Under the pieces are notes generated by a model. The model ran no database searches, was not told the origin of the DNA, and was given only the letters and a program-made list of their open reading frames with translations. The position numbers and the translations under genes are program-made. Positions 43,666 to 60,234 of a stretch of DNA of 64,000 nt are shown piece after piece. The stretch's first letter is position 1, and every line of letters starts with the position of its first letter. The stretch comes from a virus. The stretch spans positions 62,001 to 126,000 of the IMG/VR virus record IMGVR_UViG_3300018916_000001. The stretch is one strand, 5' to 3'.

Positions 43666-44239
43666 TCTTTTCTTCTAACTCTCTTAGCTCTTTTTGTCTA
43701 TATCTAGGTAATTCATCATTATCGAAATTAACTTCATCACTGTAAAGACCCTCCAAGTGTTCCCATAAGTCAATAATTATTCTATCTTTCTCATTTTCTC
43801 TATATAAAAGCTTCCTAAATCTAGGAAACTCTTTCTTATACATTTTATAGAGCTTAAGATTATTATCAATGCTAAACTCTGTATTTACAATTCTATCGGC
43901 TAATTTAATAGTCAAAGCTGCATAATTCTCTCTAGTTTTTGGAGCTGTCTTCTCAAGTATTTCTTCTCTATTTTTACCTGGTTCATTGGTTAAATCAAAT
44001 ACCATATCTGCTACTTCACTACCAAATACTGATTTAAGAAGCTCGTAAGTAACAGGAGTATCTTCTAATGAATCATGTAACCAAGCACCAGAAAGTACAA
44101 TACCATCTTTTATACCAAACTCCTGTAAAGTTAGAACTACCTCTTCTAGATGTTTTGTATAAGGTAACTCCCCATAAAACTGATTTTTATGTACCAATCT
44201 AGCAAATAACTCTGCTTGTTCACTTAATAGCATTTTCAT
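43658..44239 (-). CDS. HD-domain (p)ppGpp hydrolase-like protein
   Basis: 193 residues. ARLVHKNQFYGELPYTKHLEEV (about 14-35) supplies the first His, WLHDSLEDTPVTYELLKSVFG (about 52-72) the HD and the following ED, and ALTIKLADRIVN (about 104-115) the final Asp. This order and spacing are those of RelA/SpoT-type HD hydrolases such as MESH1. There is no synthetase domain. It may remove host alarmones or a related nucleotide. It overlaps the upstream gene by 20 nt. Confidence 0.75.
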   Translation of the reverse strand: MKMLLSEQAELFARLVHKNQFYGELPYTKHLEEVVLTLQEFGIKDGIVLSGAWLHDSLEDTPVTYELLKSVFGSEVADMVFDLTNEPGKNREEILEKTAPKTRENYAALTIKLADRIVNTEFSIDNNLKLYKMYKKEFPRFRKLLYRENEKDRIIIDLWEHLEGLYSDEVNFDNDELPRYRQKELRELEEKND

Positions 44240-44522
44240 TTAATTTCTCTATATCTAATAACTTTGTGTTCAAGTAATCTAAACTGCACTTAGTTTGCTT
44301 TATTTGTCTTTCTAAATATTCCTTCTCTCTTATAAGAAAAACATCTACCTCTTTCTTCATCTTATCTATTAGCTGTTCTACTGTATCAGCGTAATGTCTA
44401 TAAATATAGTAGTAAATATCTGAATTATAAATCTTACTATATAACGTACCTATTAACTTTTGGTTTTTCTTACTTTGACAAATAGTTATATAAAAGCCTT
44501 TATAGTTAATTTGAGTTCGCAT
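44220..44522 (-). CDS. HicB-like small protein
   Basis: 100 residues: INYKGFYITICQSKKNQKLIG, a strand TLYSKIYNSDIYY and a helix TVEQLIDKMKKEVDVFL. This is the strand-strand-strand-helix order of the HicB-like domain seen repeatedly in this region. A coiled-coil tail follows (REKEYLERQIKQTKCSL). No HicA toxin is adjacent. Confidence 0.5.
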   Translation of the reverse strand: MRTQINYKGFYITICQSKKNQKLIGTLYSKIYNSDIYYYIYRHYADTVEQLIDKMKKEVDVFLIREKEYLERQIKQTKCSLDYLNTKLLDIEKLNENAIK

Positions 44523-44524
44523 AG

Positions 44525-44896
44525 TTAACCTCCTACATTTTCCCTATTCATCCAATTAAGACAGTTAATAATTATATCTCCATGACACTTCTCATCTTCC
44601 TTACACCAACAGACTAATTTCAATGGTTCATGACCTAATTCCTCTCTAAATCTAATATCAGCTAATAACCAATCAAGAGTTTGTTTAGCTTCAGTATTAG
44701 CTTGAATTTGATTCCATAACCAACGTCTATATTTCTGTACTACCTCTTCTCTTGTACTGTCTTTACCAATCTTATACGGATTAGCTAATGTAGATTGAGG
44801 TAAACCAATATACTTACTGCCACGACCTATATAAAAACAATCTTTGTCAAACTCTATATCTTTTATGCAAACTCTTTTGACATTTAGCTTATTCAT
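44525..44896 (-). CDS. DUF4326-type protein
   Basis: 123 residues. FYIGRGSKYIGLPQSTLANPYKIG (about 21-44), a YRRWLWNQI helix and LVCWCKEDEKCHGDIIINCL (about 98-117) match the DUF4326 pattern: 'YIGR......LGNPF..' plus 'L.C.C.P..CHG..I'. The CxC...CHG cluster is likely metal-binding or catalytic. Found in many phages beside nucleotide metabolism genes; the reaction is unknown. Confidence 0.8.
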   Translation of the reverse strand: MNKLNVKRVCIKDIEFDKDCFYIGRGSKYIGLPQSTLANPYKIGKDSTREEVVQKYRRWLWNQIQANTEAKQTLDWLLADIRFREELGHEPLKLVCWCKEDEKCHGDIIINCLNWMNRENVGG

Positions 44897-45110
44897 TAGT
44901 TATCTCTACTACTCTAGAATAATTTTGTGCTATCTCTAGTAGAAGTTCTGAGTTTTCTAACAACCAAATAGCTGCTTTTCTATTTTTATCTAAAAAACTA
45001 TAATCTGTTTCTATAGGTAATTGAGGATTATCCCACCAATCAGGATTACGTCTAGCTACATAAGGAAACTCTCTAAGTAATACTTTTATTTCGTCTTTAT
45101 TTATTTTCAT
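44889..45110 (-). CDS. small hypothetical protein
   Basis: 73 residues, acidic, with a Trp-rich NPDWWDNPQLP and a helix AAIWLLENSELLLEIAQNY. Both ends overlap neighbours (TAATG-type at the start with the methyltransferase stop). No family recognised. Confidence 0.45.
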   Translation of the reverse strand: MKINKDEIKVLLREFPYVARRNPDWWDNPQLPIETDYSFLDKNRKAAIWLLENSELLLEIAQNYSRVVEITNE

Positions 45111-45694
45111 TAGATAATCCCTAAACTTCTTAAGTCTTCTATATCACATCTCATAGCTAACTTAGAAAATAATCTATGACCAATATGAACTTTCCCTAAC
45201 TTACTCATTACTTGGTTCCATTTATAGAAATCCTGACCTAAATAGAACATTACTACTGGAAATGGTGAAGAATCTTTATTGCTCGTATTCTCAAATTTAA
45301 CCCTTTTATCTAACTCACAAAAGGGATAAGGATAAAGTAACTTATACTTCTGAGTAGATACATCAGACTTAATCAATATAACTGCTTTTTCTACTTTACC
45401 CTTTTCATAAGACTCGATTAATTTAGGAATTGCTAATTTAGATAGTGAGAAAGGCGGATTTAACCATACTCTTCCATACCAATCTTTAGTTAATCCATCA
45501 TCTTCTTTAGTGTAGATATTACTAGCTTTTATTGTTTTATTAGCTATTAGATTAGTCATTGGGTCTAAATCAATCCCACCCATAACTTCTCTAGCAGCTT
45601 CAATTAAATAGCTAGGAGTATTATGTTCGTCGGAGTTCTTAGACGTGAGAGTCTTTAATGTTTTCTTAGAGCTAGTAGAATCAATAATAATCAT
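45110..45694 (-). CDS. phage DNA N6-adenine methyltransferase
   Basis: 194 residues of the phage DNA adenine methyltransferase type (PF05869-like): NTPSYLIEAAREVMGGIDLDPMT (about 27-49) is the SAM-binding region, YTKEDDGLTKDWYGRVWLNPPFS (about 57-79) carries the catalytic NPPF, and PFPVVMFYLG lies near the end. It transfers methyl to adenine N6, probably protecting phage DNA from restriction. Recognition site not predictable. Confidence 0.88.
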   Translation of the reverse strand: MIIIDSTSSKKTLKTLTSKNSDEHNTPSYLIEAAREVMGGIDLDPMTNLIANKTIKASNIYTKEDDGLTKDWYGRVWLNPPFSLSKLAIPKLIESYEKGKVEKAVILIKSDVSTQKYKLLYPYPFCELDKRVKFENTSNKDSSPFPVVMFYLGQDFYKWNQVMSKLGKVHIGHRLFSKLAMRCDIEDLRSLGII

Positions 45695-45701
45695 AAAGTT
45701 A

Positions 45702-46133
45702 CTAATTCCTCTCTACTACTCTATTATCTATTTCAGTGTATATCTTAGGTGGAGGTAACAATTCCGGTACATAACCTATAACTCTTAAATCAACATTATA
45801 TTTTTTAGCATTATCGATTGTATGTTTTGTACCTTTACTCGTCCCATTCCAGAAACAAATACAGTGAGTAGCATATTTCAACATTTCAATATTTCTTACC
45901 ATTCCAGCGCTTTTACCTTTTTCCCAATCAGGTATAAATTTCTTTACTTTATAATCTCTACTTTTAGCATAAGCTTCTCCTAACCTATCTGCACCTCTAG
46001 CACCACCAGATACAATTTCTACTTCACATTCTTCTTTTAAAATTTCTTCTAGATATCTATCAACTTCTCTATCTAATAGTTCTGGATTATTAAAATCTCT
46101 AGAACCTGCAATAATCAATTTTATGTCTACCAT
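45702..46133 (-). CDS. SLOG / DUF2493-type nucleotide-binding protein
   Basis: 143 residues. IIAGSRDFNNPELLDREV (about 7-24), EIVSGGARGADRLGEAYAK (about 39-57) and PDWEKGKSAGMVRNIEM (about 67-84), then FWNGTSKGTKHTI (about 94-106). This is the YspA/DUF2493 member of the SLOG superfamily, which binds nucleotides or nucleotide-derived ligands. In phages it clusters with nucleotide-handling genes as here. The exact ligand is unknown. Confidence 0.85.
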   Translation of the reverse strand: MVDIKLIIAGSRDFNNPELLDREVDRYLEEILKEECEVEIVSGGARGADRLGEAYAKSRDYKVKKFIPDWEKGKSAGMVRNIEMLKYATHCICFWNGTSKGTKHTIDNAKKYNVDLRVIGYVPELLPPPKIYTEIDNRVVERN

Positions 46134-46579
46134 TGTTTACCACTTTTATTGTAATTAACTAATTGATAATGAATATTCACTTGTTCTAATAGTTTATCAA
46201 TGTACTTCTCAAAAGAAGCTCTAACTCTTTCTATATTCTGTCCTTTAAAAGTAGGAGCTGCCATATTAGTACCAGGTAAACTACCTATTAATTTTCCAGA
46301 ACTATCTTTACTAACTCTTAATTTAAAGTCTTTATAGGTAAGAATTATACTATTGCTTTTCTCTAACTCTTTCTGTTTCTCATAGTATTCCTTTAAGCCT
46401 TCATCTACTTTCTTTTCAAACACTTCTCTTAATTCTTTTACGGTTACTCCAGATACATCGTAATAAACACCACTAGCTACAGGAAAATATTTATTCTTTC
46501 TAATTCTTCCTATTAAATAATCATCAGAATGAACATAAACATCTAAAATAAAACCTAGATACTCTAATGTATTACTCAT
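46127..46579 (-). CDS. double HicB-like domain protein
   Basis: 150 residues with two copies of a beta-beta-beta-alpha unit: LGFILDVYVHSDDYLIGRI ... VKELREVFEKKVDEGL (about 5-60) and YKDFKLRVSKDSSGKLIGSL ... IERVRASFEKYIDKLL (about 79-130). The layout is that of HicB antitoxin N-terminal domains. It overlaps the SLOG gene by 7 nt. No toxin partner. Confidence 0.55.
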   Translation of the reverse strand: MSNTLEYLGFILDVYVHSDDYLIGRIRKNKYFPVASGVYYDVSGVTVKELREVFEKKVDEGLKEYYEKQKELEKSNSIILTYKDFKLRVSKDSSGKLIGSLPGTNMAAPTFKGQNIERVRASFEKYIDKLLEQVNIHYQLVNYNKSGKQW

Positions 46580-46593
46580 TTTTCTTTTCCTAT

Positions 46594-46623
46594 AGAAGAA
46601 AAAGGGAGCTATTAAAACTCCCT
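46594..46623 (-). terminator. rho-independent terminator
   Basis: Minus strand: AGGGAG (46618-46623) pairs with CTCCCT (46603-46608) across a 9-nt loop, followed by TTTTCTTC. It ends the regulator transcript. Confidence 0.75.
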
Positions 46624-46633
46624 CATAAACTAC

Positions 46634-47494
46634 TTATTTACTATAATATCTATCGAAATAATCTTTCTTTACGTCTAATCTACTTAAATAGAGTAAATCT
46701 CCAAATAACTGATAAATATCTTCTAACTTTTCACTTAATGTACTAGCACTAAAATTAAGACTCACATCTTTCTCATATAATATATCTAAATGTTTTTGAT
46801 ATTGTTGCAATTCTGGTTCATGTATTTCTTCTTGCTTCACTTTCTCTACTACATTTTCAATATCTTCTATTCCTTCTGGAGATTCTATATTAATCAATCT
46901 TAATTTACTAGAATGACTACTATCATGTATAAATATAGGAGATAAATCTATATCTACATAACTAGCATTTTTATATTGATTGCTGTTAGTAATAAGTCTT
47001 AGATAACAAGTAATACCATTACTATGCTTAATAATATATAAGAGAACTTTCTTCGGTGTATTATTAGATACATTAAGGTAGTTTAGAAAAGATCTAAAAT
47101 ATTCATCTTTAATTAGCGCATATCTATACTCAAAAGAATTATCAACATACTCACTATATTCGGAAGACCTATAGTAGAGGTTAAATTTAATTTGAGTTGG
47201 ATCATCATCTCTAAAATCTCTAAACACTAGATTCTTGAATGCAAGAGTAATAATTTCACTTGTTGGATAAGATTTTTTATCTTCCATAGTATTTTCTTCT
47301 TTCTTAAGCTCAATGTTCATGATATATCCTAACTTACTAAAGATTTCGATTAGTGTTTCTACAGTCGGTACATTTTTGCCAGACTCAATTTTAGAAAGAT
47401 AAGGTTGTTCAATGCCAATAATCTTAGAGAACTGAACTTGAGTTAAACCTAAATCTTTCCTTATCTTAGTGATTTCTTTTGCAATGTTGAACAT
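46634..47494 (-). CDS. XRE-family HTH regulator with novel C-terminal domain
   Basis: 286 residues. The N-terminal helix-turn-helix reads ITKIRKDLGLTQVQFSKIIG, then IEQPYLSKIESGKNVPTVETL (about 8-50), a classical XRE DNA-binding domain. The remaining ~225 residues (FDRYY-ending, beta then helical) are unfamiliar and may sense a signal or dimerise. The gene is flanked by terminator-like hairpins on both sides, so it is a separate transcription unit. Likely phage gene-expression regulator. Confidence 0.8.
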   Translation of the reverse strand: MFNIAKEITKIRKDLGLTQVQFSKIIGIEQPYLSKIESGKNVPTVETLIEIFSKLGYIMNIELKKEENTMEDKKSYPTSEIITLAFKNLVFRDFRDDDPTQIKFNLYYRSSEYSEYVDNSFEYRYALIKDEYFRSFLNYLNVSNNTPKKVLLYIIKHSNGITCYLRLITNSNQYKNASYVDIDLSPIFIHDSSHSSKLRLINIESPEGIEDIENVVEKVKQEEIHEPELQQYQKHLDILYEKDVSLNFSASTLSEKLEDIYQLFGDLLYLSRLDVKKDYFDRYYSK

Positions 47495-47497
47495 AAA

Positions 47498-47528
47498 ATT
47501 AAAGACTCCCTAATATTAGTAGAGAGTC
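47498..47528 (-). terminator. possible terminator
   Basis: GACTC (47524-47528 on the minus strand) pairs with GAGTC (47504-47508), with partial inner pairing, followed by TTTAATTTT. It would end transcription of the small gene at 47550. Weak because of the inner mismatch. Confidence 0.45.
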
Positions 47529-47549
47529 ATAGCTTTTACATCTTAGATA

Positions 47550-47768
47550 TTACTTAGTCTTATCATTAAAACCAAAAATATCCTCGTAGTTTTTAGCAGC
47601 TTTCTTAAGCGATTCATTAGGTTCGGGTGAGTTTTCTATAATTTCCCATAGTTGTTCTGCATCTTCTCTACTCAACCTAATAGACTTACTAGACTTTTCC
47701 ATTTTTGGAGTTCGAGCAATTAGATTAAACTTGAGAGCTGTACGAGCTAACTATTGTCTAAATCCCAT
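47550..47768 (-). CDS. small gene with in-frame amber codon near its start
   Basis: The best ribosome site (CAGGAG, 9 nt spacing) precedes the ATG at 47768, which encodes MGFRQ and then TAG (47751-47753). The same frame continues LARTALKFNLIARTPK into a second ATG at 47702 and on to 47550, giving a 50-residue product MEKSSKSIRLSREDAEQL... that looks like an ordinary helical protein. Either the amber is read through (72 residues), or the internal ATG is used by reinitiation, or the gene is decaying. Other genes here stop normally at TAG, so wholesale recoding is excluded. Confidence 0.5.
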
Positions 47769-47805
47769 AATAAGTATCTCCTGTAAACGTTATATTTTAC
47801 TTCTA

Positions 47806-48270
47806 CTAATTACTATTTCTAAGATATGTACAATACGTTAACTCCTCTCTAGTTTGTTGCCTACTTAATATCCACTTACTATAATCAATATTCAAGTAAC
47901 AATCTCCAATAAAAGATCTATGTATATGAGTAATCACCATCATATTCGCCAAAGGTAAAAATAATTCATATATAGTTTTACCACCTATAACCCAAAAATC
48001 CCTATTAGTTTTTATTATTTCTTCTACACTTTTAGAAATTTTAACTTGAGTATAGTCTAGACTGTTCAATTTAGAACTTAAAACTATATTAGTTCTTCCT
48101 TTTAAAGGTTCTGAATTTAAATCATGTAAAAAGGTAGTAGCTCCCATGACTACTGTAGAATTAACGGTTAGTTCCTTAAATCTTTTTAAATCTTCGGAAT
48201 AATACCAAGGTAACTTGTTTTTATTACCTATTACATTGTTGAGGCTAATAGCACTAATTAGCTTTATCAT
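47806..48270 (-). CDS. folA: dihydrofolate reductase
   Basis: 154 residues with the DHFR course: ISAISLNNVIGNKNKLPWYYSEDLKRF (about 5-31), TVVMGATTFLHDL (about 39-51), GRTNIVLSS (about 58-66), FWVIGGKTIYELFLPLA (about 91-107) and a final strand. It reduces dihydrofolate with NADPH, regenerating the cofactor used by the thymidylate synthase just upstream. Its start overlaps that gene by 17 nt. A Trp follows LP as usual. Confidence 0.92.
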   Translation of the reverse strand: MIKLISAISLNNVIGNKNKLPWYYSEDLKRFKELTVNSTVVMGATTFLHDLNSEPLKGRTNIVLSSKLNSLDYTQVKISKSVEEIIKTNRDFWVIGGKTIYELFLPLANMMVITHIHRSFIGDCYLNIDYSKWILSRQQTREELTYCTYLRNSN

Positions 48271-49192
48271 AACCCCCTACAACGGTCAACGGAATGATAA
48301 TTGCGTCATTTGGTTTATAATTACTTATTTCAAAATCTTCAAATACAAAATCAGTTAAATAGTTTTGCCCTTTATCTTTCATATTTAGCTGTGGAAAAGG
48401 ACTAGGAGTACGCTCTAATTGTTTTTGCAGTGGTTCAATCTGGTCGGAATATATGTGAACATCATCTAACATAACAATCAACTCTCCTGGTTCATAGTTA
48501 CAACATTTAGAATACAGATGAGTTAATAATCCGTACTGAGCAATATTAAACCCTAGTCCCGTACCTATATCTGAACTCCTAAATTTAACACTTAGACTTA
48601 ATCTACTATTAGATACATTTACTGTGTAAGTGAAACCACAAGCAGGTAGTAATACACTCTCCCTACCACATTCATCTGCCATTGAGTATACTTCTTCTGG
48701 ATTCCAATAACTAACCACATAACTTTTTCTGTCTGGGTTTTTCTTAATACTATCAATTACCCATTTAGTTTGGTCTAAATAACCAGAATCAAATCTCCAT
48801 TTAGTGCTATTACTGTAATGGGTTGGAATAGTGAACACTTTACGTTTTAGTAAAATTTCTTCTACAAACTCTTCTAAAGAGATATTAGAATCAATATAAT
48901 TTTGTTGGTAGTATTTATATGCAAATTCATTCCAAATGTTTACTCTTTGCTGAGCTAGTTCTGCTACATTATTAGTTCCAGATAAAAACCATAGTATTTC
49001 TTTAAATGCGCCTTTCCAGAATAGTTTCTTAGTTGTAAGAATAGGAATACTATGGTTAGCCAGATTAAATCTAAGTAGCCTTCCAAATACAGAAAGAATA
49101 TATTTGTCTTCTACTCCATAAATAGCTTTTTTAGTACCATTAATCAAAACATCTCTAATTAAATCTAAATACTGCTGTTCTTCTAAATTCAT
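48254..49192 (-). CDS. thyA: thymidylate synthase (ThyA-type)
   Basis: 312 residues. LWFLSGTNNVAEL ... NIWNEFA gives the dUMP-binding Trp region. LLPACGFTYTV (near 182) carries the catalytic Cys. FRSSDIGTGLGFNIAQYGLL holds Arg, Asp and the pyrimidine-contacting Asn, and DVHIYSDQIEPL the His/Tyr pair. It should make dTMP from dUMP and methylene-THF. Unusually the residue after the Cys is Gly (normally His) and the usual Gln before RS is Phe. Asn is kept, favouring dUMP over dCMP. It forms an operon with DHFR. Confidence 0.88.
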   Translation of the reverse strand: MNLEEQQYLDLIRDVLINGTKKAIYGVEDKYILSVFGRLLRFNLANHSIPILTTKKLFWKGAFKEILWFLSGTNNVAELAQQRVNIWNEFAYKYYQQNYIDSNISLEEFVEEILLKRKVFTIPTHYSNSTKWRFDSGYLDQTKWVIDSIKKNPDRKSYVVSYWNPEEVYSMADECGRESVLLPACGFTYTVNVSNSRLSLSVKFRSSDIGTGLGFNIAQYGLLTHLYSKCCNYEPGELIVMLDDVHIYSDQIEPLQKQLERTPSPFPQLNMKDKGQNYLTDFVFEDFEISNYKPNDAIIIPLTVVGGYDKAN

Positions 49193-49199
49193 AATATTA

Positions 49200-49898
49200 T
49201 TAATTTGATTGGTTTAATAAATAATGTTGAAAATCTAAGTCATTAGATAAATAATTTTCTGTACCGTAAAATCTATCCCAATGTTCTTCATAAAAGTTAA
49301 ACATATTAGTGAGTAATTTACTATTCAACTCTTCGAGGTCTAGAGTAATTAGTTCTTGTAAAAGTTGTCCATAAATTTGCTGTGTTTCTTCCACCTTCTC
49401 TGTTAAAATTTCTAGCTCCAATAAATAACCATAACCAGCATTTAGGTCGATAGTTGCAGTAACATCATCTTTAATAAATGTTTCTCTTTGTCTGCCCCAT
49501 TTACTACTATAAGTTAAACCTGCATTTAACAATAAATTGTCTAAAGTAATAAAGGATATATCTAATAGAACTTCATACTCCTTACGAATAGTTCCATTAC
49601 TACTATTCTCGTCAAATATTGAGTATTTAATAATAAAAAAACTTTCTCTATTATCTATACATCTAGTTCTAATACTAAACTTGTCACCTCTACCTATTAC
49701 GTTACTTAACTCTAATTCTTGATCTGTTGTTAAATAATCTCTTAAAATATCAAATAAATAAGCAAGAGAATAATCACTATAATTAAAATAATGATTTAAC
49801 TGAGTTTCTCTACTTATATAAATATAACCTTTCTCTAATAGCTTAGACTTAGTTATATTGTAATCTGGTATTAAAGCCTTAACTTCTACTTCAAACAT
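49200..49898 (-). CDS. CYTH-domain phosphohydrolase / cyclase-like protein
   Basis: 232 residues. It starts FEVEVKALI, the ExExK signature of CYTH (CyaB/thiamine triphosphatase) tunnel proteins. RGDKFSIRTRC (about 90-100), FFIIKYSIFD, RKEYEVLLD and YLLELEIL supply the inward-facing charged strands. Such proteins act on triphosphates (polyphosphate, thiamine-PPP, sometimes ATP). Immediately upstream of thyA; a nucleotide-related role is likely but the substrate is unknown. Confidence 0.8.
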   Translation of the reverse strand: MFEVEVKALIPDYNITKSKLLEKGYIYISRETQLNHYFNYSDYSLAYLFDILRDYLTTDQELELSNVIGRGDKFSIRTRCIDNRESFFIIKYSIFDENSSNGTIRKEYEVLLDISFITLDNLLLNAGLTYSSKWGRQRETFIKDDVTATIDLNAGYGYLLELEILTEKVEETQQIYGQLLQELITLDLEELNSKLLTNMFNFYEEHWDRFYGTENYLSNDLDFQHYLLNQSN

Positions 49899-49911
49899 TT
49901 TTCTTTCTCTC

Positions 49912-49944
49912 TAAAATAATAAAAGGGCAGCTATTACACTACCC
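49912..49944 (-). terminator. rho-independent terminator
   Basis: Minus strand GGGTAG (49939-49944) pairs with CTGCCC (49925-49930) with one G-U, followed by TTTTATTATTTT. It separates the coiled-coil gene at 49965 from the CYTH-thyA-DHFR unit. Confidence 0.7.
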
Positions 49945-49964
49945 TATAACTAAACGACTATTGA

Positions 49965-50417
49965 CTACAAATCTTTCAGCTCAGCTTTCAATTTCTCTAA
50001 CTCAGCTTTCAACTCTTCAGTTGCTTTACTAGCTGTTTCTTGGTACTCTTTCTCGTACACAATCCTTTCTAGATTTTGAGCGCGTTGTAATTTCTCTGTT
50101 CTAATGTTAGCTTTCTCCTTAGCTTTTTCTTCTTCCTCTAAGCGAGTCTCTAAGATATACTTAGCAATATCAAACTTGAGTTGAGTTAGATAATTAGTAA
50201 GATTAGGCTTCTTAAGAAAAGTAATTTGAGTAGAACTTTGCAATTCAGTGTATAAGTCTACTGTTACTTTATCTAAACTACCTAAATCTACATCCCACAA
50301 ATCTTCAATACTCCAAAACCCAGAAGGCTTAGTCTTATCTCGATTCTCTACTTTATAACGTACTTTCTTACGTGTACCTTCAGCAATTCGATTAGTGTCA
50401 GTCATATTCTTATCCAC
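49965..50417 (-). CDS. coiled-coil hypothetical protein
   Basis: 150 residues. The N-terminal half has FWSIEDLWDVDLGSLDKVTV. The C-terminal half (about 88-150) is a long Glu/Lys/Ala coiled coil (EEEEKAKEKANIRTEKLQ). It directly follows the large DUF2135-containing gene, probably co-transcribed. Function unknown. Confidence 0.55.
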   Translation of the reverse strand: MDKNMTDTNRIAEGTRKKVRYKVENRDKTKPSGFWSIEDLWDVDLGSLDKVTVDLYTELQSSTQITFLKKPNLTNYLTQLKFDIAKYILETRLEEEEKAKEKANIRTEKLQRAQNLERIVYEKEYQETASKATEELKAELEKLKAELKDL

Positions 50418-50427
50418 TGTATTTTGT

Positions 50428-52509: not shown

Positions 52510-52536
52510 AAATAATTCCTCAGTGTGAATAAAGAT

Positions 52537-52567: not shown

Positions 52568-52576
52568 ATCTTAAAA

Positions 52577-52780: not shown

Positions 52781-52985
52781 TCTCTCTATCCTTTGTCAGT
52801 CTCTTTTCTTCACTATAGGCAACAAAAGCAATTCCACCTAATACACTACTCCCTAAAATTAAAGGAGATGGATTTCCACCTGTTAATAGTAAAACTCCTG
52901 CGAAACCCAACCCTACTTGAGCCATCTGTTTAACTAATGACGACAGACTAGACTTAGACTCTTCATATAAGCTTTTTCTTCTCAT
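52770..52985 (-). CDS. small membrane protein with two helices
   Basis: 71 residues. Two hydrophobic segments, VGLGFAGVLLLTGG (about 24-37) and LILGSSVLGGIAFVAYS (about 42-58), separated by an NPSP turn, give a helical hairpin with both charged ends on one side. It lies beside the PduO-like gene with 2 nt between. Confidence 0.6.
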   Translation of the reverse strand: MRRKSLYEESKSSLSSLVKQMAQVGLGFAGVLLLTGGNPSPLILGSSVLGGIAFVAYSEEKRLTKDRENEQ

Positions 52986-52987
52986 AT

Positions 52988-53683
52988 TTAAAACTCCGGT
53001 GGATTATAACTACCTATTTTAGCTTCCCATACATTTTCATCTAAATTGAGCTTCAAAGTTGAATATCTACTAATCCAAAATAAATACGTACTTATCCGAT
53101 TTAATAAAGCTGAGGTATCCAATCTAGCTCCTTCCATCTTCTTCAACCCATAAAGAGTAAAGTACCAGAGAGTATAAGTAGTCTCTAATATACGAAAAGC
53201 TAATCGAGCTAAATCTATACTTAAAAGGCGTCCATCAGTAAAAGAAAGAAAATCTTGACAATCTCCTAAACTCTTACCGTTTACTTCTGTAGTTTGTAAA
53301 TACTCAATTCGTTTATCTATAGTGTCTAGAACTTCAATAGGAAATATGTGATTAATAGAGTCATCACTTCCCCAATTAAAACAAAATGCTCCTAAAGAAT
53401 GTAGATTCTCAATAAACCATTGTAATTGATAAACCTCAAACTCTTCTAGAAACGGAGATTTAGTGTGATGAAGAAGAATCTTGCTACAACACCATTTACT
53501 AAATTCCAATGCGCTATAAACTAAGTGAGCTGGAGAGTGTTTAGGTAGACGAATACCTTTAATAAATTCACTGGTTCCATCATCTCCTCTACTATAATGT
53601 CTAATACCAGACTTAATTCTAGGAGTTACTTTCTTTTGATTGACTAAAAGACTGAGGTTATAAAGTAATTGATTAATGTTCAT
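52988..53683 (-). CDS. PduO-type cob(I)alamin adenosyltransferase-like protein
   Basis: 231 residues. HYSRGDDGTSEFIKGIRLPKHS (about 29-50) follows the ATP-binding start of PduO enzymes (TRTGDDGT...G.RV.KD.P), one residue shorter. YSALEFSKW aligns with Y.T.DELN, an EEFEVYQLQWFIENLHSLGAF helix follows, then IDLARLAFRILE (Arg160) and LLNRISTYLFWISR (Asn195), matching the 'ARTV.RR.ER ... LNRLSD.LF..AR' helices. PduO makes adenosylcobalamin, the cofactor of the class II ribonucleotide reductase encoded at 61544. The family match is by eye. Confidence 0.68.
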   Translation of the reverse strand: MNINQLLYNLSLLVNQKKVTPRIKSGIRHYSRGDDGTSEFIKGIRLPKHSPAHLVYSALEFSKWCCSKILLHHTKSPFLEEFEVYQLQWFIENLHSLGAFCFNWGSDDSINHIFPIEVLDTIDKRIEYLQTTEVNGKSLGDCQDFLSFTDGRLLSIDLARLAFRILETTYTLWYFTLYGLKKMEGARLDTSALLNRISTYLFWISRYSTLKLNLDENVWEAKIGSYNPPEF

Positions 53684-53685
53684 TA

Positions 53686-53991
53686 CTAATCTCCAAATAA
53701 ATCTATCTCTTCTACTAAAACTCTAAAATCAGTCAACTCTCCCTCACAATTATTTTGTATTTTCATATTTTCATCTAAAAATACTGGATAATCCTCGTAA
53801 TTAGCAATTAACTCAATCTTATTCCAAAAACAAAAATACCGTACTACATTAAATATAGAAGTAGTAGAAGTAGAGATCTTATATTCTAACTTCTCTTTAT
53901 CTTCTAAAAACTTCTTTAATGATTGAATTACTTTATATTCAGAATGAGGTAAGCTATCTCTTTTATAGTAGAAGTGGATTACTTTCTTCAT
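53686..53991 (-). CDS. hypothetical protein
   Basis: 101 residues with a basic start (MKKVIHFYYKRDSL), a helical YKVIQSLKKFLEDKEKLEY and a Phe/Trp-rich centre. Its start overlaps the upstream stop as ATGA. No family recognised. Confidence 0.45.
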   Translation of the reverse strand: MKKVIHFYYKRDSLPHSEYKVIQSLKKFLEDKEKLEYKISTSTTSIFNVVRYFCFWNKIELIANYEDYPVFLDENMKIQNNCEGELTDFRVLVEEIDLFGD

Positions 53992-54341
53992 CCCAATCTC
54001 TTAGCTAATTTTTCTTGTTCCATTCGTAATTGCTCTTTATACATATCACATTGCAATCTATACCCTTCGAGTTGCCAGAGTTGATTCATAGCGTGCAACC
54101 TACACATCTTACGACCAATACCAACATCAAACTTTTTGTGATTTACTACTGCTGACCTACCCAAGACAGTGAACCCATTTTGTAATCTATAAGAGATAGT
54201 CATTGAAATAGGTGGGTCGTGTTGAAATTGCTCTACTTTTTCCACTGCATTATCCAATAAAGATGCAATGTGTTCCTCAGTTGTAAAGTAAGGGTTATCC
54301 TTGTGATGTTCTTTAATTTCTTCTTCTAAAGTCTTGTTCAT
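53988..54341 (-). CDS. phage Gp49-like protein (N4 gp49 / Sf6 gp66 type)
   Basis: About 117 residues from the ATG at 54341; a longer TTG start at 54401 is possible. ISMTISYRLQNGFTVLGRSAVVN, then KFDVGIGRKMCRLHAMNQLWQLEGYRLQ matches the Gp49-like family: 'YRL.NGFTV.G.SA.V....FD..IG...A...A...LW.LEGY.L'. The family is widespread in phages and its function is unsettled. Preceded by 30-50 aa that do not match. Confidence 0.8.
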   Translation of the reverse strand: MNKTLEEEIKEHHKDNPYFTTEEHIASLLDNAVEKVEQFQHDPPISMTISYRLQNGFTVLGRSAVVNHKKFDVGIGRKMCRLHAMNQLWQLEGYRLQCDMYKEQLRMEQEKLAKRLG

Positions 54342-54426
54342 AATTGCGAGATACTTAATGATAAAAACGACATAATCATTATCCATGAGAGTAACACCCA
54401 AAATCTTAATTCAGTCTTAATATTCA

Positions 54427-54528
54427 CTACATATCTTCCTCAATAAACGTATCTACATACCAAAGTACAAAGAGTACCATAAATGCTATAAATCCAATAG
54501 TAGATAATAAAATATTTATAATGGTCAT
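54427..54528 (-). CDS. 33-residue single-helix membrane peptide
   Basis: ATG 54526-54528, TAG 54427-54429. MTIINILLSTIGFIAFMVLF is almost entirely hydrophobic and is followed by WYVDTFIEEDM. The start overlaps the stop of the upstream gene (TTATGA). Small coupled membrane peptides like this can act in lysis or membrane modification, but nothing here proves it. Confidence 0.5.
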   Translation of the reverse strand: MTIINILLSTIGFIAFMVLFVLWYVDTFIEEDM

Positions 54529-54692
54529 AACTTCTCCATATTCCAAAGTAGACCAATAATAATACCGTTAATATAAGTACAACCAATTAATACTGCTACT
54601 AATACACTAAGACTTCCACTCATAAGTAGAATTGCGTGTAAAGTAATAAACATTAAAACTAAAAACTTTGCTACTTTCTTAGGATTATTCAT
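54525..54692 (-). CDS. 55-residue membrane protein with two helices
   Basis: ATG at 54692, TGA at 54525-54527. A basic start (MNNPKKVAK) is followed by FLVLMFITLHAILLM and SVLVAVLIGCTYINGIIIG helices. It overlaps both neighbours. With the 33-residue peptide it forms a pair of tiny membrane genes. Confidence 0.55.
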   Translation of the reverse strand: MNNPKKVAKFLVLMFITLHAILLMSGSLSVLVAVLIGCTYINGIIIGLLWNMEKL

Positions 54693-54964
54693 TATAATAA
54701 CTCCTTCAATACTTCTTGAACTTGATCGGCAGTTAGTAGAGTGTATTTCCTATCATCTATACTATCTCCTACTATATCAAAACAATCATCTTCACTAATA
54801 TCTTCAATAATAGTATTTATTTTTAGAAGACTTTTATCTTCAAATTGATCTTTTAAGATTTCAATAGGATAGTAATTATCTTCTTCTATATACTCAACTA
54901 AATCAAAATCTTCACTACATTTTCGGATATAGATATTTCCACGATTAACTTGGATATAGTACAT
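54692..54964 (-). CDS. small acidic hypothetical protein
   Basis: 90 residues, strongly acidic in the middle (EDISEDDCFDIVGDSIDDRK) with a beta start MYYIQVNRGNIYIRKC. Acidic small phage proteins sometimes mimic DNA, but there is no family match to support it here. Confidence 0.45.
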   Translation of the reverse strand: MYYIQVNRGNIYIRKCSEDFDLVEYIEEDNYYPIEILKDQFEDKSLLKINTIIEDISEDDCFDIVGDSIDDRKYTLLTADQVQEVLKELL

Positions 54965-54977
54965 AATATCTTTCTAC

Positions 54978-55457
54978 CTACTTATACTCTTTTCCCATTA
55001 TCTGATTATATAGATAAGCTGTTTCTTCTAACTCATCTATATATTCCTCAAAATCGACTTGCATATTAGACACTACTTTATGATAAAATTTTCTTGTACC
55101 TTTTGGAGCATTTCTAATTCTTCCTATCATATAACCTTTATCTAATCCATCTTCTACGCCATACTCAAGAACTACTCCTTTATAAGTCAATATATCTTTC
55201 TCTTTCTTAACTTCTTCTAATTGAGTAGTTATAGAAGCTAATTGTTCTTCTAATCTTTTAATACGTTCTTCTTTAGATTCAACATTATCTATAGTATCTC
55301 TAAACTTCTTCAATAAATCTACTCTACTTTTATTTAGTAACACTACATTAGCTTCAGTACATTCTCCTTTATAGAGATTAGTAGAGAAATCATATACTAT
55401 ATCTAAGACATACTCTTTATAAAAATAAGAAGTAGTATATATAGTTCTCTCTAACAT
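54978..55457 (-). CDS. double HicB-like domain protein with coiled coil
   Basis: 159 residues: unit one YKEYVLDIVYDFSTNLYKGEC (about 13-33), a coiled coil (SKEERIKRLEEQLASITTQL), then unit two YKGVVLEYGVEDGLDKGYMIG with a helix QVDFEEYIDELEETAYL. The two HicB-like units are joined by the coiled coil, an arrangement also found in 46127-46579. It is next to the Thg1-like gene. Confidence 0.55.
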   Translation of the reverse strand: MLERTIYTTSYFYKEYVLDIVYDFSTNLYKGECTEANVVLLNKSRVDLLKKFRDTIDNVESKEERIKRLEEQLASITTQLEEVKKEKDILTYKGVVLEYGVEDGLDKGYMIGRIRNAPKGTRKFYHKVVSNMQVDFEEYIDELEETAYLYNQIMGKEYK

Positions 55458-55470
55458 TTCCCTATTCTCC

Positions 55471-56220
55471 TTAATTAATTAGTGATTCGAGAAACTTACC
55501 ATAATCTTCTTTCATTGGTAAATCTTCGTCTACCTTCAACCTTCGCCTAGTAGTTAATACTTCTTCTTGAGTTATTGGATTATATCCAGTCTTGTCATAA
55601 GTCTCCCAATAAATACCTGTACCTCTTCTCTGCCAGCTAGGAACATCGTTGAAGTTAATTCCATTACTAAATAGAAGCTTGTTCTTAAATTCTCTAGTTT
55701 GCTTATCTAATATACTTGTAGCTTTTCTAGCTGAATGACCTAAATTTCTCAATGTCCAATAGCTATAACCATTTAACGCACATCTTGCAGCATCAGCTTG
55801 TCTCCATAGAAAATAATCTATTACTTGTGATTTATTAGCTAGAGATATAAGTCTACTATCAAAACTAACTATTGAACCAGAAAGATGAGTGAAATTAGAA
55901 CTTGCAATACTAGCCGAGATACTTACTAACTTCTCTACTGACCTATCAAATAAATTCCAATTAAGAGGAAATAAAATAGATATCTCATCTGACTCAGTAA
56001 AGGCATACAAGCCATCTAAATCGGTTATTAAAGCTTTTGTAGTTTCAATCATCCAAGAATGGAAAGTTAAGTCAAATGGTTTATCAAATTTAGAGTTATA
56101 TGTAAAATTACTAAATGAACGTCCATCTACTCTAATTACTGTATAAGTCTCAGGTAACAATCTTAAGTTGTGGAAATACTCAAGTGAGCGCATCTTAGAC
56201 TCAAATTGGTCATTATTCAT
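55471..56220 (-). CDS. Thg1-like tRNA guanylyltransferase family protein
   Basis: 249 residues. TYTVIRVDGRSFSNFT (about 21-36) carries the first metal-binding Asp (VDGRSF). LYAFTESDEISILFPL (about 74-89) supplies the SDE catalytic pair. SASIASSNFTHLSGSIVSFDSRL and the helical ARKATSILDKQT follow the Thg1 order. Thg1 proteins add nucleotides to tRNA 5' ends in the reverse (3'-5') direction; bacterial Thg1-like proteins repair truncated tRNA 5' ends. It could act on the phage's unusual tRNAs. Confidence 0.85.
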   Translation of the reverse strand: MNNDQFESKMRSLEYFHNLRLLPETYTVIRVDGRSFSNFTYNSKFDKPFDLTFHSWMIETTKALITDLDGLYAFTESDEISILFPLNWNLFDRSVEKLVSISASIASSNFTHLSGSIVSFDSRLISLANKSQVIDYFLWRQADAARCALNGYSYWTLRNLGHSARKATSILDKQTREFKNKLLFSNGINFNDVPSWQRRGTGIYWETYDKTGYNPITQEEVLTTRRRLKVDEDLPMKEDYGKFLESLIN

Positions 56221-56224
56221 TGTT

Positions 56225-56386
56225 CTATCCTCCTACTCTTTCACGAAAACAACTCTCTAACCATTCCTTACTAGAAGCTTCAATATAAATACCTAACTTC
56301 TCACATTTACCTTCATATTTCTTAGTAGTAGGATTATAATCAATCTCTAGTTCGTAACTGTTATACCCGTAGATAAACTGAGCCAT
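56225..56386 (-). CDS. 53-residue HicB-like protein
   Basis: ATG 56384-56386, TAG 56225-56227. YGYNSYELEIDYNPTTKKYEG, KCEKLGIYIEAS and a terminal helix KEWLESCF reproduce the HicB-like pattern (YELEIxYNP...WEGxCxKLGI) found also in 56397-56729. Coding is supported by overlap-free packing between two genes of the same strand. Confidence 0.55.
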   Translation of the reverse strand: MAQFIYGYNSYELEIDYNPTTKKYEGKCEKLGIYIEASSKEWLESCFRERVGG

Positions 56387-56396
56387 CGTTCTCTCC

Positions 56397-56729
56397 TTAT
56401 ATTACCGAATCTACATATTCCATGAAGTCGTTCTTTAGATTCTGTTCTATATCTGAATTACTAAAATAATTTAATTCTGCACAACTACCATAGTAAATAT
56501 CCTGACTTTTATTAATGATCAATTCATAATCTAAATAAGGAAAAGTTATCATTTCATTTCTCTGCTTTATTAGTTTATTAACTAAGATTCTAAACTGAGA
56601 ACTTAATACTCCTCTACTTATATCTTCTAACTTAACTCCTAACTTAGGACAATTACCTTCCCATAATTGGGATTCGGGGTTATAAGTTACTATCAACTCA
56701 TAAGTTCTATAAGTGTAATTACTGCTCAT
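56397..56729 (-). CDS. double HicB-like domain protein
   Basis: 110 residues: first unit YRTYELIVTYNPESQLWEGNC ... KLGVKLED ... LSSQFRILVNKLI (about 7-55), second unit YLDYELIINKSQDIYYGSC ... IEQNLKNDFMEYVDSVI (about 64-110). It is a tandem paralogue of the 53-residue gene just downstream. Confidence 0.6.
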   Translation of the reverse strand: MSSNYTYRTYELIVTYNPESQLWEGNCPKLGVKLEDISRGVLSSQFRILVNKLIKQRNEMITFPYLDYELIINKSQDIYYGSCAELNYFSNSDIEQNLKNDFMEYVDSVI

Positions 56730-56796
56730 AACCTCGACTTCCTTCTAACTTTTTAGTATTTGGTAATCGTCTTGATTCTCTATTAAATAAGCTCAT
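56719..56796 (-). CDS. possible 25-residue peptide
   Basis: ATG 56794-56796, TAA 56719-56721. The product MSLFNRESRRLPNTKKLEG... is basic and overlaps the start of the double HicB-like gene. It may be a real leader peptide coupling translation, or spurious. Kept at low confidence. Confidence 0.3.
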   Translation of the reverse strand: MSLFNRESRRLPNTKKLEGSRGYEQ

Positions 56797-56807
56797 AGTA
56801 ACCTCGT

Positions 56808-56975
56808 TTAATTAACTAAATCTAACTTTGCATTTACAAATCTCTCAAAAGAATCTACTAAAGAAGCAATAGTATCTAGTGTTCTCTTAAAACCTAACTC
56901 TTTGCATTCTCCAGTGTAATAGAAACCTTTTTCAGATAATAGTAAAGTGTAATTTTGATACTTATAGCTATTCAT
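56808..56975 (-). CDS. 55-residue HicB-like protein
   Basis: ATG 56973-56975, TAA 56808-56810. YKYQNYTLLLSEKGFYYTGEC, KELGFKRTLDTIASLV and SFERFVNAKL follow the same strand-strand-strand-helix pattern as neighbours. First gene of the minus-strand operon, facing the divergent homing endonuclease. Confidence 0.55.
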   Translation of the reverse strand: MNSYKYQNYTLLLSEKGFYYTGECKELGFKRTLDTIASLVDSFERFVNAKLDLVN

Positions 56976-57020
56976 TTGGTTTTTTTATTTAGTTGATATG
57001 GAACCTGAAGGAATCGAAAA

Positions 57021-57054
57021 TAGTAAATATGTTATATTAGTATTTTATTTACTA
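57021..57054. promoter_or_regulatory. inverted repeat upstream of the endonuclease gene
   Basis: TAGTAAATA (57021-57029) and TATTTACTA (57046-57054) are perfect inverted arms around 16 nt that contain TATATT. It lies between divergent genes and could be an operator overlapping a promoter. Confidence 0.45.
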
Positions 57055-57061
57055 AATAACT

Positions 57062-57691
57062 ATGACAAAAATACTATTAAAATGTAGATTTTGTAACACT
57101 ACTATAGAAAGAGAAAGGTCTGCCTATAATAAAGCAAATAAAGTAAGTCAAACAAATCATTTCTGCTCTAGATATTGTTCTTTCAAATATAATACTTTAA
57201 TAAACAATATAGATGTTATCTGCTCTCAATGTAAAAAAGAACTTAGTAGAAGAAAGTCTGAAGTTGCTAAAGTTAAAAATTGTTTTTGTTCTAGCAGTTG
57301 TGCAGCTAGCTATAACAATACTCATAAAATTAAAGGTACTAGACGCTCTAAACTAGAACAGTATTTAGAAGAACAATTATCTGCATTATTTCCTCGATTA
57401 GAAATATTATTTAATTATAAAGATACTATAAACTCAGAACTTGACATTTATATTCCTCAATTTAGATTAGGGATTGAACTAAACGGTATTTATCACTCAA
57501 AACCTATCTACGGAGAGAAAAAGTTAAAAAAGATTCAAAATAACGATTTACTTAAAATAGAAGCTTGTAATAAACACTTAATTACGCTAGTCATTATAGA
57601 TACTTCTAACCAAAAGAAATGGAATCCTAAATCTTCAGAAGAATATTTAGAATCTATAAAAGAGCTTTTAAATAGCTATATGCTTTTATAG
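57062..57691 (+). CDS. free-standing homing endonuclease with zinc fingers, PD-(D/E)XK-like
   Basis: 209 residues. Two zinc modules: CRFCNT...HFCSRYCSFKYN (about 8-42) and CSQCKKEL...CFCSSSCAASYNN (about 53-90). The nuclease part then reads KLEQYLEEQL (about 98-107), INSELDIYIPQFRLGIELNGIYHSKP (about 122-147) and IQNNDLLKIEAC. Glu, Asp, Glu, His and Asp in that order resemble the EDxHD homing endonucleases known from cyanophages. It is the only plus-strand gene in the right part and probably a selfish insertion. Confidence 0.7.
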   Translation: MTKILLKCRFCNTTIERERSAYNKANKVSQTNHFCSRYCSFKYNTLINNIDVICSQCKKELSRRKSEVAKVKNCFCSSSCAASYNNTHKIKGTRRSKLEQYLEEQLSALFPRLEILFNYKDTINSELDIYIPQFRLGIELNGIYHSKPIYGEKKLKKIQNNDLLKIEACNKHLITLVIIDTSNQKKWNPKSSEEYLESIKELLNSYMLL

Positions 57692-57834
57692 TAAAATTGC
57701 TAATCGAAGAATAGAAGGAACTATATTTCAAGGTTGTATATTTTTATAAATGATGATAAAAGTTGTAGGTATTGTAGTCGTATATAGAGTAATAATTACA
57801 TTTAGTCATCAACCACAATAGTGTAGAGATTAAT

Positions 57835-57857
57835 GGGGGGGAGAATTAACTCCCCTT
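57835..57857. terminator. strong GC hairpin
   Basis: GGGGAG (57838-57843) pairs with CTCCCC (57850-57855) around AATTAA, preceded by three more G. There is no good T run on either strand. It may be a terminator or an mRNA 3' stabiliser for the minus-strand genes. The ~140 bp between it and the endonuclease gene show no coding sequence. Confidence 0.5.
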
Positions 57858-57865
57858 ACTACTAT

Positions 57866-58102
57866 CTACTTATTCTTCTGACTTTCTTTGAATTCAACTA
57901 AAATCTGATGAAGTTCTTCTAAAGAACCTGGAAATTCCTTTGCAATATCTTCAACAATTGAGGAACAACTACTAACCAATTCTTTTCTCCTATTCTTCAA
58001 AATTCTCTTCTTAGCTTTGTCAAACTCAGGTTTCAATTCATCATAGTATTTTTTAACTTTAGGGTCAGACAGAAGTTTAGCTGTGAGAGCTTCGAGAGTC
58101 AT
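57866..58102 (-). CDS. small hypothetical protein
   Basis: 78 residues, basic and helical (YDELKPEFDKAKKRILKNRRKE), then SCSSIVEDIAKEFPGSLEELHQIL. The latter phrase resembles the protein of 21038-21262, so both may belong to one family spread over the genome. Function unknown. Confidence 0.5.
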   Translation of the reverse strand: MTLEALTAKLLSDPKVKKYYDELKPEFDKAKKRILKNRRKELVSSCSSIVEDIAKEFPGSLEELHQILVEFKESQKNK

Positions 58103-58111
58103 TGTTTTTCC

Positions 58112-58336
58112 CTACAAATAAGTATCGTGCATTAATAGGTGTGTCCCGAATTCTTCCTCATCTTCGTCTCCCTCATTATTTATAGATTGGATGTACTTAT
58201 CATATTGTCTTCTTTCTAGAGTTCTAAGATAAGAAATTAATTGTTCTATATCTTCTTGGTTATTTCTTAACATAGAATCCCAATCTATTATTTTTCCTAG
58301 TAGTTCGTAACATTCTGACCGTTCATACTCATTCAT
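58112..58336 (-). CDS. small acidic hypothetical protein
   Basis: 74 residues, helical at first (YELLGKIIDWDSMLRNNQED), acidic near the end (EGDEDEEEFG). Nine bases separate it from the next gene. No family recognised. Confidence 0.45.
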   Translation of the reverse strand: MNEYERSECYELLGKIIDWDSMLRNNQEDIEQLISYLRTLERRQYDKYIQSINNEGDEDEEEFGTHLLMHDTYL

Positions 58337-58393
58337 CTTATTCTCTCCTAATTAATTTTATCTCGGGATTTAGTCACCTCATCCCACTACTAC

Positions 58394-58912
58394 TTATTTC
58401 TTATCTACTATTGAATTGTAGTAAATAAGTTCCTCTTCATCATTTAAGTACCCAATAACTGAATAAGTTACTCTAGGAGAATTACTAGAATAACAATATT
58501 GAATTGTATTAGAGCTGATAACTTCTCTAATTTCTTTATTGTCTTTTCCATTATGAGAATTAATGATTGAAATATAAGGTTCACAACTATGATATCCCCT
58601 AACCATAAAGCCAGGTAGATATCTTACTAATTTAGTTGGGTCTCCTATCCATTCATCGTCTGATTCGTTGAAGACTATATTATCTTCTAAGTCTAGATAA
58701 CCAACTTGAACTAACTCATTTTTACTAGAAGTGGAATCTTTGAAATAACAAGAAGTTACGTATTTAAATACGCCTCTCGTCTTTTTAAGAATGTCTTTCT
58801 CTATTTGCTTTTGTACTTCTTTCATCATTTCTTCAGTTTTAAGAGTTATAAAGTTTCTAGAATCGTTCTTATCTGTACCACGTATTTGAGTAGTAAAGTT
58901 GTTAGTGTTCAT
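58394..58912 (-). CDS. hypothetical protein with repeated beta unit
   Basis: 172 residues. Two similar parts appear: CYFKDSTSSKNELVQVGYLDL.. and YCYSSNSPRVTYSVIGYLNDEE.., each ending in a strand and acidic turn. The last phrase (IGYLNDEEELIYYNSI) resembles VGILNDKNDSVVFYDQY of the small gene at 59535. GGAG lies before the ATG. Function unknown. Confidence 0.5.
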   Translation of the reverse strand: MNTNNFTTQIRGTDKNDSRNFITLKTEEMMKEVQKQIEKDILKKTRGVFKYVTSCYFKDSTSSKNELVQVGYLDLEDNIVFNESDDEWIGDPTKLVRYLPGFMVRGYHSCEPYISIINSHNGKDNKEIREVISSNTIQYCYSSNSPRVTYSVIGYLNDEEELIYYNSIVDKK

Positions 58913-58983
58913 TGATTTTTCTCCTTAACTAAAATGGTGAATCTCGATACTCTGGAAATGTGTTAACTTGTGGTCTTTCTTTT

Positions 58984-59535
58984 CTAAGAGTTTGTCTCTA
59001 ATTTTTTTAGTTCATCTAATAGTTCTCTGACTAAATCAGGATATTTACCATGGGTACCAATAGGATGACTTCCATAAATTTGATAGAATCTCTTTACAAA
59101 TTTCTCTAAACTTTTCTCTTTAGTGAATATATCTGCTAACTTATCTAACTTTTGCTCTATTCTTTCTAGACTATTAGGTATTAGTTGCTTCTTCTCTTCA
59201 GAAATTTTCCAATTGATATATTTCTTAAATTTAGTAATGTTAGCTTCTTCGTCTTCTCCATAAGTTTTGTAATCTAATTCTTTGCAATAACCACCTTTCC
59301 TCTTTTGTCCGTAATTGTCCTCTATTAATCCTAGTTTTAAGAGATAACCTTTATACTCAAAAGACTTTATAAGATTATCTACCTCCCATCTAAACCTACT
59401 AACTAATTGATAAAGACTACAACCTTTCCATGCACCATTTATAAAAGAAAGAGTAGATTCATCACATTTAGTTTTAAAACCGTTATATTCTTCCTCAATC
59501 TCTAAAATGTAACCTTTATACTCTAGTTTCATCAT
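58984..59535 (-). CDS. double HicB-like domain protein
   Basis: 183 residues. Unit one: LEYKGYILEIEEEYNGFKTKC ... SLYQLVSRFRWEVDNLI (about 3-57). Unit two: FEYKGYLLKLGLIEDNYGQ ... ITKFKKYINWKI (about 59-112). A helical tail follows. It starts at ATGATG overlapping the stop of the upstream 50-residue gene. Among the clearest HicB-like members. Confidence 0.6.
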   Translation of the reverse strand: MMKLEYKGYILEIEEEYNGFKTKCDESTLSFINGAWKGCSLYQLVSRFRWEVDNLIKSFEYKGYLLKLGLIEDNYGQKRKGGYCKELDYKTYGEDEEANITKFKKYINWKISEEKKQLIPNSLERIEQKLDKLADIFTKEKSLEKFVKRFYQIYGSHPIGTHGKYPDLVRELLDELKKLETNS

Positions 59536-59687
59536 TACTTTCTCCTTAAATACTGGTCATAAAACACTACTGAATCGTTTTTATCATTTAGTATTCCAAC
59601 TTCTATAAATTGGTCACTATTATCTTGAAGCTTGAATACTTTCTTAGTTCTTTTAATACTACTAGAATCAGCTAAGTTAATTTCCAT
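59535..59687 (-). CDS. 50-residue beta protein
   Basis: ATG 59685-59687, TAA 59535-59537. MEINLADSSSIKRTKKVFKL, then FIEVGILNDKNDSVVFYDQY. It is similar to the end of 58394-58912 and is coupled to the next gene by TAATG. Function unknown. Confidence 0.5.
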   Translation of the reverse strand: MEINLADSSSIKRTKKVFKLQDNSDQFIEVGILNDKNDSVVFYDQYLRRK

Positions 59688-59692
59688 TGTAT

Positions 59693-59908
59693 TTAATCTC
59701 TAGTAACTATACGAATTGTCATTTCTTCTCTTTTCTCTAGCTCTGATGCCGTAGAGATAAAACTACCAATTAGAGTGTTAAAATCTACTTTCCAACAATC
59801 TTCACAAAAAGAAAGAATATCAAGACAAGAAGTTTTATAGCAATCTTTTTCTTCCTCTATACTTTCTACGGTTAAGATATATCCATTACATTTACATTCA
59901 AACTTCAT
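59693..59908 (-). CDS. single HicB-like domain protein
   Basis: 71 residues: NGYILTVESIEEEKDCYKTSC (about 8-28), LSFCEDCWKVDFNTLIGSFI (about 32-51), helix TASELEKR. Similar to unit one of 58984-59535 (both have a LSF-x-x-x-x-WK phrase). Contains six Cys, unusual for the family. Confidence 0.55.
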   Translation of the reverse strand: MKFECKCNGYILTVESIEEEKDCYKTSCLDILSFCEDCWKVDFNTLIGSFISTASELEKREEMTIRIVTRD

Positions 59909-59937
59909 TTAAACCTCCAGCTAATTTGTAAGGATAT

Positions 59938-60234
59938 TCACCAATTATGTAACTTAGCCCAATCTCTTAACTTAACATTGTCTTCTACTAATTGATTGTG
60001 AAATTTATAGTGTATCTCTTCATCAATTCTTCTTTCTATTTGTTCTATAAGATGAGTGAGAGAATCTGAATCATACCAACCATTAAGACCTAGAATTTCA
60101 CCTGATAAACATTCTCGTTCTGCGTCTAGATATATCTCGTATTTGTAATCTCGATATTCTTTAGTTAAGACAGGATTAAAGTCACCTTCTAGTTCATTTA
60201 TTTTTATTTTCTTTACAATATTCAGGAGGGACAA
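59938..60234 (-). CDS. HicB-like domain protein
   Basis: 98 residues. YRDYKYEIYLDAERECLSGEI, then LGLNGWYDSDSLTHLIEQIE and RRIDEEI follow the strand-strand-strand-helix order. The N-terminal ~20 residues overlap the next upstream gene by 41 nt, so the start may be further in. No HicA-like partner nearby. Confidence 0.5.
   Translation of the reverse strand: MSLLNIVKKIKINELEGDFNPVLTKEYRDYKYEIYLDAERECLSGEILGLNGWYDSDSLTHLIEQIERRIDEEIHYKFHNQLVEDNVKLRDWAKLHNW

Follow-up and report, generated by a model that had tools for sequence, protein, structure and literature searches.

Why a phage should carry many small proteins resembling the antitoxin HicB without its toxin, HicA, is the question raised by the window, the 64,000-nucleotide stretch analyzed here, which covers bases 62001-126000 of a 151,199-base virus record (G+C content, 31%). 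The phage is most likely a cyanophage, as judged from its portal, which is 27% identical to the related portals of Pseudanabaena phages PA-SR01 and Pam2. Nine minus-strand open reading frames of the window together held 13 copies of one unit of about 54 residues, with the consensus Y-K-G-Y-x-L-x-I ... G-x-C-x-E-L ... L-x-x-x-F-x-x-x-V-D. All nine genes named in a preliminary description of this DNA were present at the coordinates it gave, with one or two units each:

44220..44522, minus strand: one-unit protein with a long C-terminal helix; unit at 44316-44510; orthologs in the related phages G001, G002, and G003
46127..46579, minus strand: two-unit protein; units at 46373-46567 and 46175-46342
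54978..55457, minus strand: two units joined via a coiled coil; units at 55275-55430 and 55008-55190
56225..56386, minus strand: single free-standing unit, 53 aa
56397..56729, minus strand: two-unit protein; units at 56556-56717 and 56400-56549; the first unit was modeled (pLDDT 96)
56808..56975, minus strand: single unit, 55 aa
58984..59535, minus strand: two units and a helical C terminus; units at 59362-59526 and 59194-59361
59693..59908, minus strand: single unit, 71 aa; ortholog G003_87865 (59% identity)
59938..60234, minus strand: single unit at 60004-60162; TTG start as listed, uncertain

The coiled-coil segments that had been proposed were also found, in 54978 as matches to coiled-coil families and in 44220 as a helix of about 50 residues. 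A GGAG/AGGA-like ribosome site preceded seven of the nine starts, and promoter-like sites were not more frequent than in shuffled sequence.

A profile trained on the 13 window units was searched against the whole record. Six proteins outside the window, none of them used in training, were matched at E values of 7e-17 to 2.5e-6:

C14037-15092: 351 aa, E 7e-17; five units, by eye and rescan
C131926: E 3e-10
C15156: E 1e-8
C38603 and C34114: E 2e-7
C37577-38599: 340 aa, E 2.5e-6; four units, by eye and rescan

After iteration, the record contained about 17 proteins, one of them added by eye (C147568; first-pass E value, 0.14), with 29 units in all and as many as five in tandem. The count of at least nine genes in the preliminary description therefore stood for the nine but understated the extent of the family. 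C130547 is a possible, weak 18th member (unit at 130568-130735, E 0.002), and with it the unit proteins occupy about 5% of the record's bases. When each window protein was left out of the profile in turn, eight of the nine were regained at E values of 8e-14 to 0.015. The remaining protein, 44220, was not regained alone (E 1.2); its four-phage ortholog group aligned with the other units (hhalign E 1e-4). The reversed profile gave no match at an E value of <0.01 in the contig or in the cyanobacterial loci. No relatives emerged when viral contigs were scanned with 56397 or 46127 individually or genomes with one G002 unit, and tblastn of 46127 against known phages gave no match. The mean identity between units was 21%, and their tails and coiled coils were varied.

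Three relatives of this phage (G000) were found by portal and tail searches: G001, a 65-kb fragment with a 97% identical portal; G002, 150 kb (68%); and G003, 147 kb (69%). In the regions that were read, G002 had 12 unit proteins with 15 units and G003 had 14 with 19, mostly near the portal. Further records carried three units (G296) and one unit (G297), and no unit was found at an E value of ≤1 in PA-SR01 and Pam2, which among named phages have the closest portals. Some window unit genes had orthologs in the relatives at 30 to 59% identity. The orthologs of 59938 were G002_107795 and G003_87394, and 54978 resembled G002_97499 (four units) and G003_97204 (three units). Among the unit genes lies an unusual phage cargo that is a possible host clue:

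55471-56220, minus strand: Thg1 tRNA-His guanylyltransferase (PF04446, E 3e-30)

This Thg1 was 83% identical to the G002 copy and 65% identical to a chromosomal gene of Microcoleus sp. FACHB-61, and because of the latter identity the genus Microcoleus may be named as host, as a lead only.

The HicB-like identity that had been proposed was upheld by four kinds of evidence, namely, a blind recovery of HicB, a profile-profile comparison with a shuffle control, a database match, and a fold comparison. A phage-only alignment of the units (A1) was searched blind in 292 cyanobacterial genomes and gave ten matches at an E value of ≤1e-3, compared with about 0.3 expected by chance. Nine of the ten were HicB-type proteins, aligned over nearly the whole unit at the N terminus, that is, in the toxin-neutralizing domain; the other, the peptidase-like protein L029, was set aside as a chance match. 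Small genes adjoined the matched HicB genes, and all five of those tested encoded HicA (PF07927, E 2e-9 to 7e-12). Comparison of the phage units with the cyanobacterial HicB N-domains by hhalign scored 47.3 over 53 columns, whereas 200 column shuffles gave a mean of 8.8 (standard deviation, 1.9; maximum, 15.5). In addition, 46127 matched phrog_9151, annotated "HicB-like antitoxin" (E 3e-5). A Pfam search of the nine window proteins gave no match to HicB. The unit escapes Pfam because the HicB model there, PF05534, is restricted to the C-terminal part of the protein, spanning residues from about 51 onward in cyanobacterial HicB. The PF15919 profile, which the preliminary description had recommended, found no match in the record. 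Alignment of A1 with E. coli HicB alone was not useful, a weak test with a single distant sequence, and profile searches of the PDB with the units returned chance matches only. Altogether, homology of the units to the N-terminal toxin-binding domain of HicB antitoxins is well supported on sequence grounds. The units are without the D-V-I-x-F-x-G stretch of HicB and have G-x-C in place of G-x-V; given these losses from the consensus, the interface with HicA may not have been preserved.

The predicted structures agree with this relationship. The first unit of 56397 (56397a), modeled with a 28-row alignment, had a pLDDT of 96 and the order strand-strand-strand-helix. Its best PDB match by Foldseek was 2yzt of Thermus thermophilus (probability, 0.98; TM, 0.73; E 0.38). 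VIA-align returned 2yzt, TTHA1013 (1wv8), Burkholderia HicB (6g1c and 6g1n), and E. coli HicB3 (6u0i) at Z values of 5.2 to 5.8, and the HicB chains superposed on the model at 1.6 to 2.4 Å over 50 residues (6g1c N-domain: Z 5.5, 1.6 Å). The model thus has the partial RNase H fold of the HicB N-terminal domain, at Z values below 8, which alone are moderate support. MmoD ranked first in the same search (Z 6.7), and similar scores went to release-factor domains, T7 gp1.2, and phiKZ Dip. In a viral library, a protein of the Ackermannviridae annotated "HicB family" and one of a Mycobacterium phage annotated "HicB-like antitoxin" were among the matches. For 44220, the most diverged unit, a model built from its own four orthologs alone showed three strands followed by a long helix (pLDDT 84); its best structural matches were MmoD and AcrIF24, and HicB was absent among the VIA-align matches listed for it. 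The two divergent units modeled thus share the strand-strand-strand-helix order, and the claim of a common structure withstood this comparison. The Z values alone would not decide the family; that choice is decided by the sequence evidence.

The absence of HicA, also part of the preliminary description, extended beyond the window. PF07927 found no HicA gene in the whole record or in the three relatives, so that no hicA stands beside a hicB-type gene in G000 to G003, and Pfam gave no helix-turn-helix (HTH) or ribbon-helix-helix (RHH) match in the nine window proteins. With neither HicA nor a DNA-binding domain, the unit genes are therefore not HicAB modules. PADLOC matches in the record were coiled-coil or HTH look-alikes and were rejected. 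Like HicB N-domains, 22 of the 29 units were acidic, and four of the six HicA neighbors had a pI above 9; the acidity of the units would suit a basic toxin better than a nucleic acid.

Among the three functions first offered for the units, which were the binding of host HicA, RNA, or DNA, neutralization of host HicA is the best supported, and we give counterdefense by HicB-derived units that neutralize host HicA RNases about an even chance of being correct. A HicA-neutralizing set would best account for a phage with many diverged HicB domains but no toxin. HicA is an mRNA interferase according to its E. coli annotation and is neutralized by HicB N-domains (review, PMC11594946). It was found in 29 of 59 sampled cyanobacterial genomes, with as many as 31 matches per genome, and all 29 of the Microcoleus genomes sampled had it. 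HicAB as an anti-phage system has itself been proposed from genomic context, not demonstrated. In the proposed mechanism, the toxin-binding domain of HicB would have become separated from the DNA-binding domain of that protein as well as from HicA, and would have multiplied within one cyanophage lineage. Upon infection, the phage would make a panel of diverged proteins of one to five units, and each unit would bind and block one host HicA-type RNase or a few of them, keeping the toxins that infection releases from stopping phage growth. We infer HicA binding, early expression, and a benefit to the phage. In a more elaborate form, which we regard as rather doubtful, the set would be modular, each unit having its own toxin partner, with multiheaded proteins disarming the whole HicA set of a host and swaps updating it for each host.

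Comparison of close relatives bears on such turnover. The backbones of G000 and G001 were collinear, and 46127 was missing from G001 although the flanking DNA aligned. The 44220 proteins of the two phages were 41% identical (dS 1.4), whereas both neighbors, 43658 and 44525, were 92% identical (dS 0.19 and 0.48, respectively). This pattern fits gene swapping within the accessory region. Positive selection on 44220 is not claimed (dN/dS 0.38, with dS near saturation); its divergence is explained, on these values, by a swap or by long divergence. Another fast-changing accessory gene lies nearby, outside the unit family:

44889-45110, minus strand: 73-aa nonunit gene, 31% identical in G001 between conserved neighbors

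A serious rival to HicA neutralization is that the HicB-derived domain was reused as a general binding scaffold, with units inhibiting varied host proteins such as defense enzymes, RNases, and metabolic enzymes, and not mainly HicA. Small inhibitors of similar strand-strand-strand-helix order include the N-terminal domain of AcrIF24, MmoD, T7 gp1.2, phiKZ Dip, and SPO1 PEIP. Against 56397a, T7 gp1.2 bound to dGTPase scored Z 5.5 and the RNase E inhibitor phiKZ Dip Z 5.0. The 44220 model matched AcrIF24 (Z 5.6) and the enolase-directed SPO1 PEIP (Z 5.2), with the AcrIF24 N-terminal domain and MmoD together spanning Z 5.6 to 7.1. The AcrIF24 domain was likened by its authors (PMC9001735) to MmoD, the top VIA-align match here too, and the low identity between units and their varied tails and coiled coils also favor a scaffold. 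However, all of these inhibitor matches lie at Z values below 8 and have no sequence match in the PDB profile searches, whereas HicB and the units are clearly related in sequence, and we consider the scaffold a tentative alternative, possible at perhaps one chance in three.

Binding of RNA or DNA by the units, for instance in regulating phage or host transcripts, is less likely because most units are acidic and the nine proteins have no DNA-binding domain. Double-stranded RNA-binding domains and other RNA-binding entries did occur lower down the fold list of 56397a, and HicB proteins are also known as repressors, but HicB represses through a C-terminal HTH or RHH domain that is missing here; we judge such a role improbable. 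The units could also be remnants or selfish passengers of little function, spread by homing endonucleases, of which there are candidates close by:

57062-57691, plus strand: putative zinc-ribbon nuclease, among the unit genes
62762-63379, minus strand: GIY-YIG homing endonuclease, near the unit genes

HicB-like antitoxins have been reported in association with homing endonucleases in moraphages. Nevertheless, the reading frames are intact, ribosome sites are present, orthologs are kept across phages whose portals are 68% identical, and the 44220 alleles have diverged yet are intact in all four phages, which makes passengers the least probable of these explanations.

HicA neutralization can be set against known systems. 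The units resemble the toxin-binding N-domain of HicB antitoxins (COG4226 type, N-domain plus PF05534 C-domain) in sequence and predicted fold, but differ from HicAB type II toxin-antitoxin modules in having no adjacent HicA or DNA-binding domain, in their tandem arrangement, and in their number, about 17 paralogs. Class 1 and 2 HicB antitoxins also have no DNA-binding domain (Gerdes 2024, PMC10865869), and such compact HicAB modules include one in a cyanophage, Planktothrix phage PaV-LD (PMC10865869); these are operons with hicA and one HicB each, unlike the units here. Free-standing antitoxins of moraphages, for which counterdefense was proposed (PMC12619734), and a phage antitoxin mimic that counters DarTG (PMC11481870) are likewise antitoxin-like phage genes without a toxin, with counterdefense proposed or shown. 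In the excerpts of those two sources, they are not described as a large multiunit family of one domain, and for the units counterdefense is a proposal. Compact HicB without a DNA-binding domain and free-standing phage antitoxins as proposed counterdefense are therefore already known, while in open-licence papers we found no phage family described as having HicB-type domains in such number or in tandem. Cyanobacterial HicAB modules are sometimes numerous, and their role in phage defense has been proposed mainly from genomic context; if HicA neutralization is true, toxin-less HicB-domain proteins in a phage would be natural evidence that HicA acts against phages, and the unit proteins would be a ready test set for that action. 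They also show why such proteins escape annotation, since Pfam models HicB of this type in its C-terminal half only.

Some neighboring genes deserve mention:

46634-47494, minus strand: Xre-HTH protein (PF01381)
57866-58102, minus strand: 78-aa protein, by eye like the N-terminal part of HigA-type antitoxins, without a Pfam match
60194-60475 and 60646-60885, minus strand: pair of similar small proteins (TQEQIDYLTQLVKLNIDVTKYDYFIE and NQEQVDYLSQFIKVKIELDKYDYFLEE), both matching G002_108471
63508-63951, minus strand: intein splicing region (PF14890), at the window edge

About 40 to 60 residues of the Xre-HTH protein matched the unit protein G002_105301 and G003_89909. On visual inspection, what they share is the C-terminal module of the Xre-HTH protein (IYQLFGDLLYLSRLDVKKDYFDRYY), which suggests domain shuffling between this regulator and unit proteins. 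The pair at 60194-60475 and 60646-60885 represents another small paralogous family adjoining the units.
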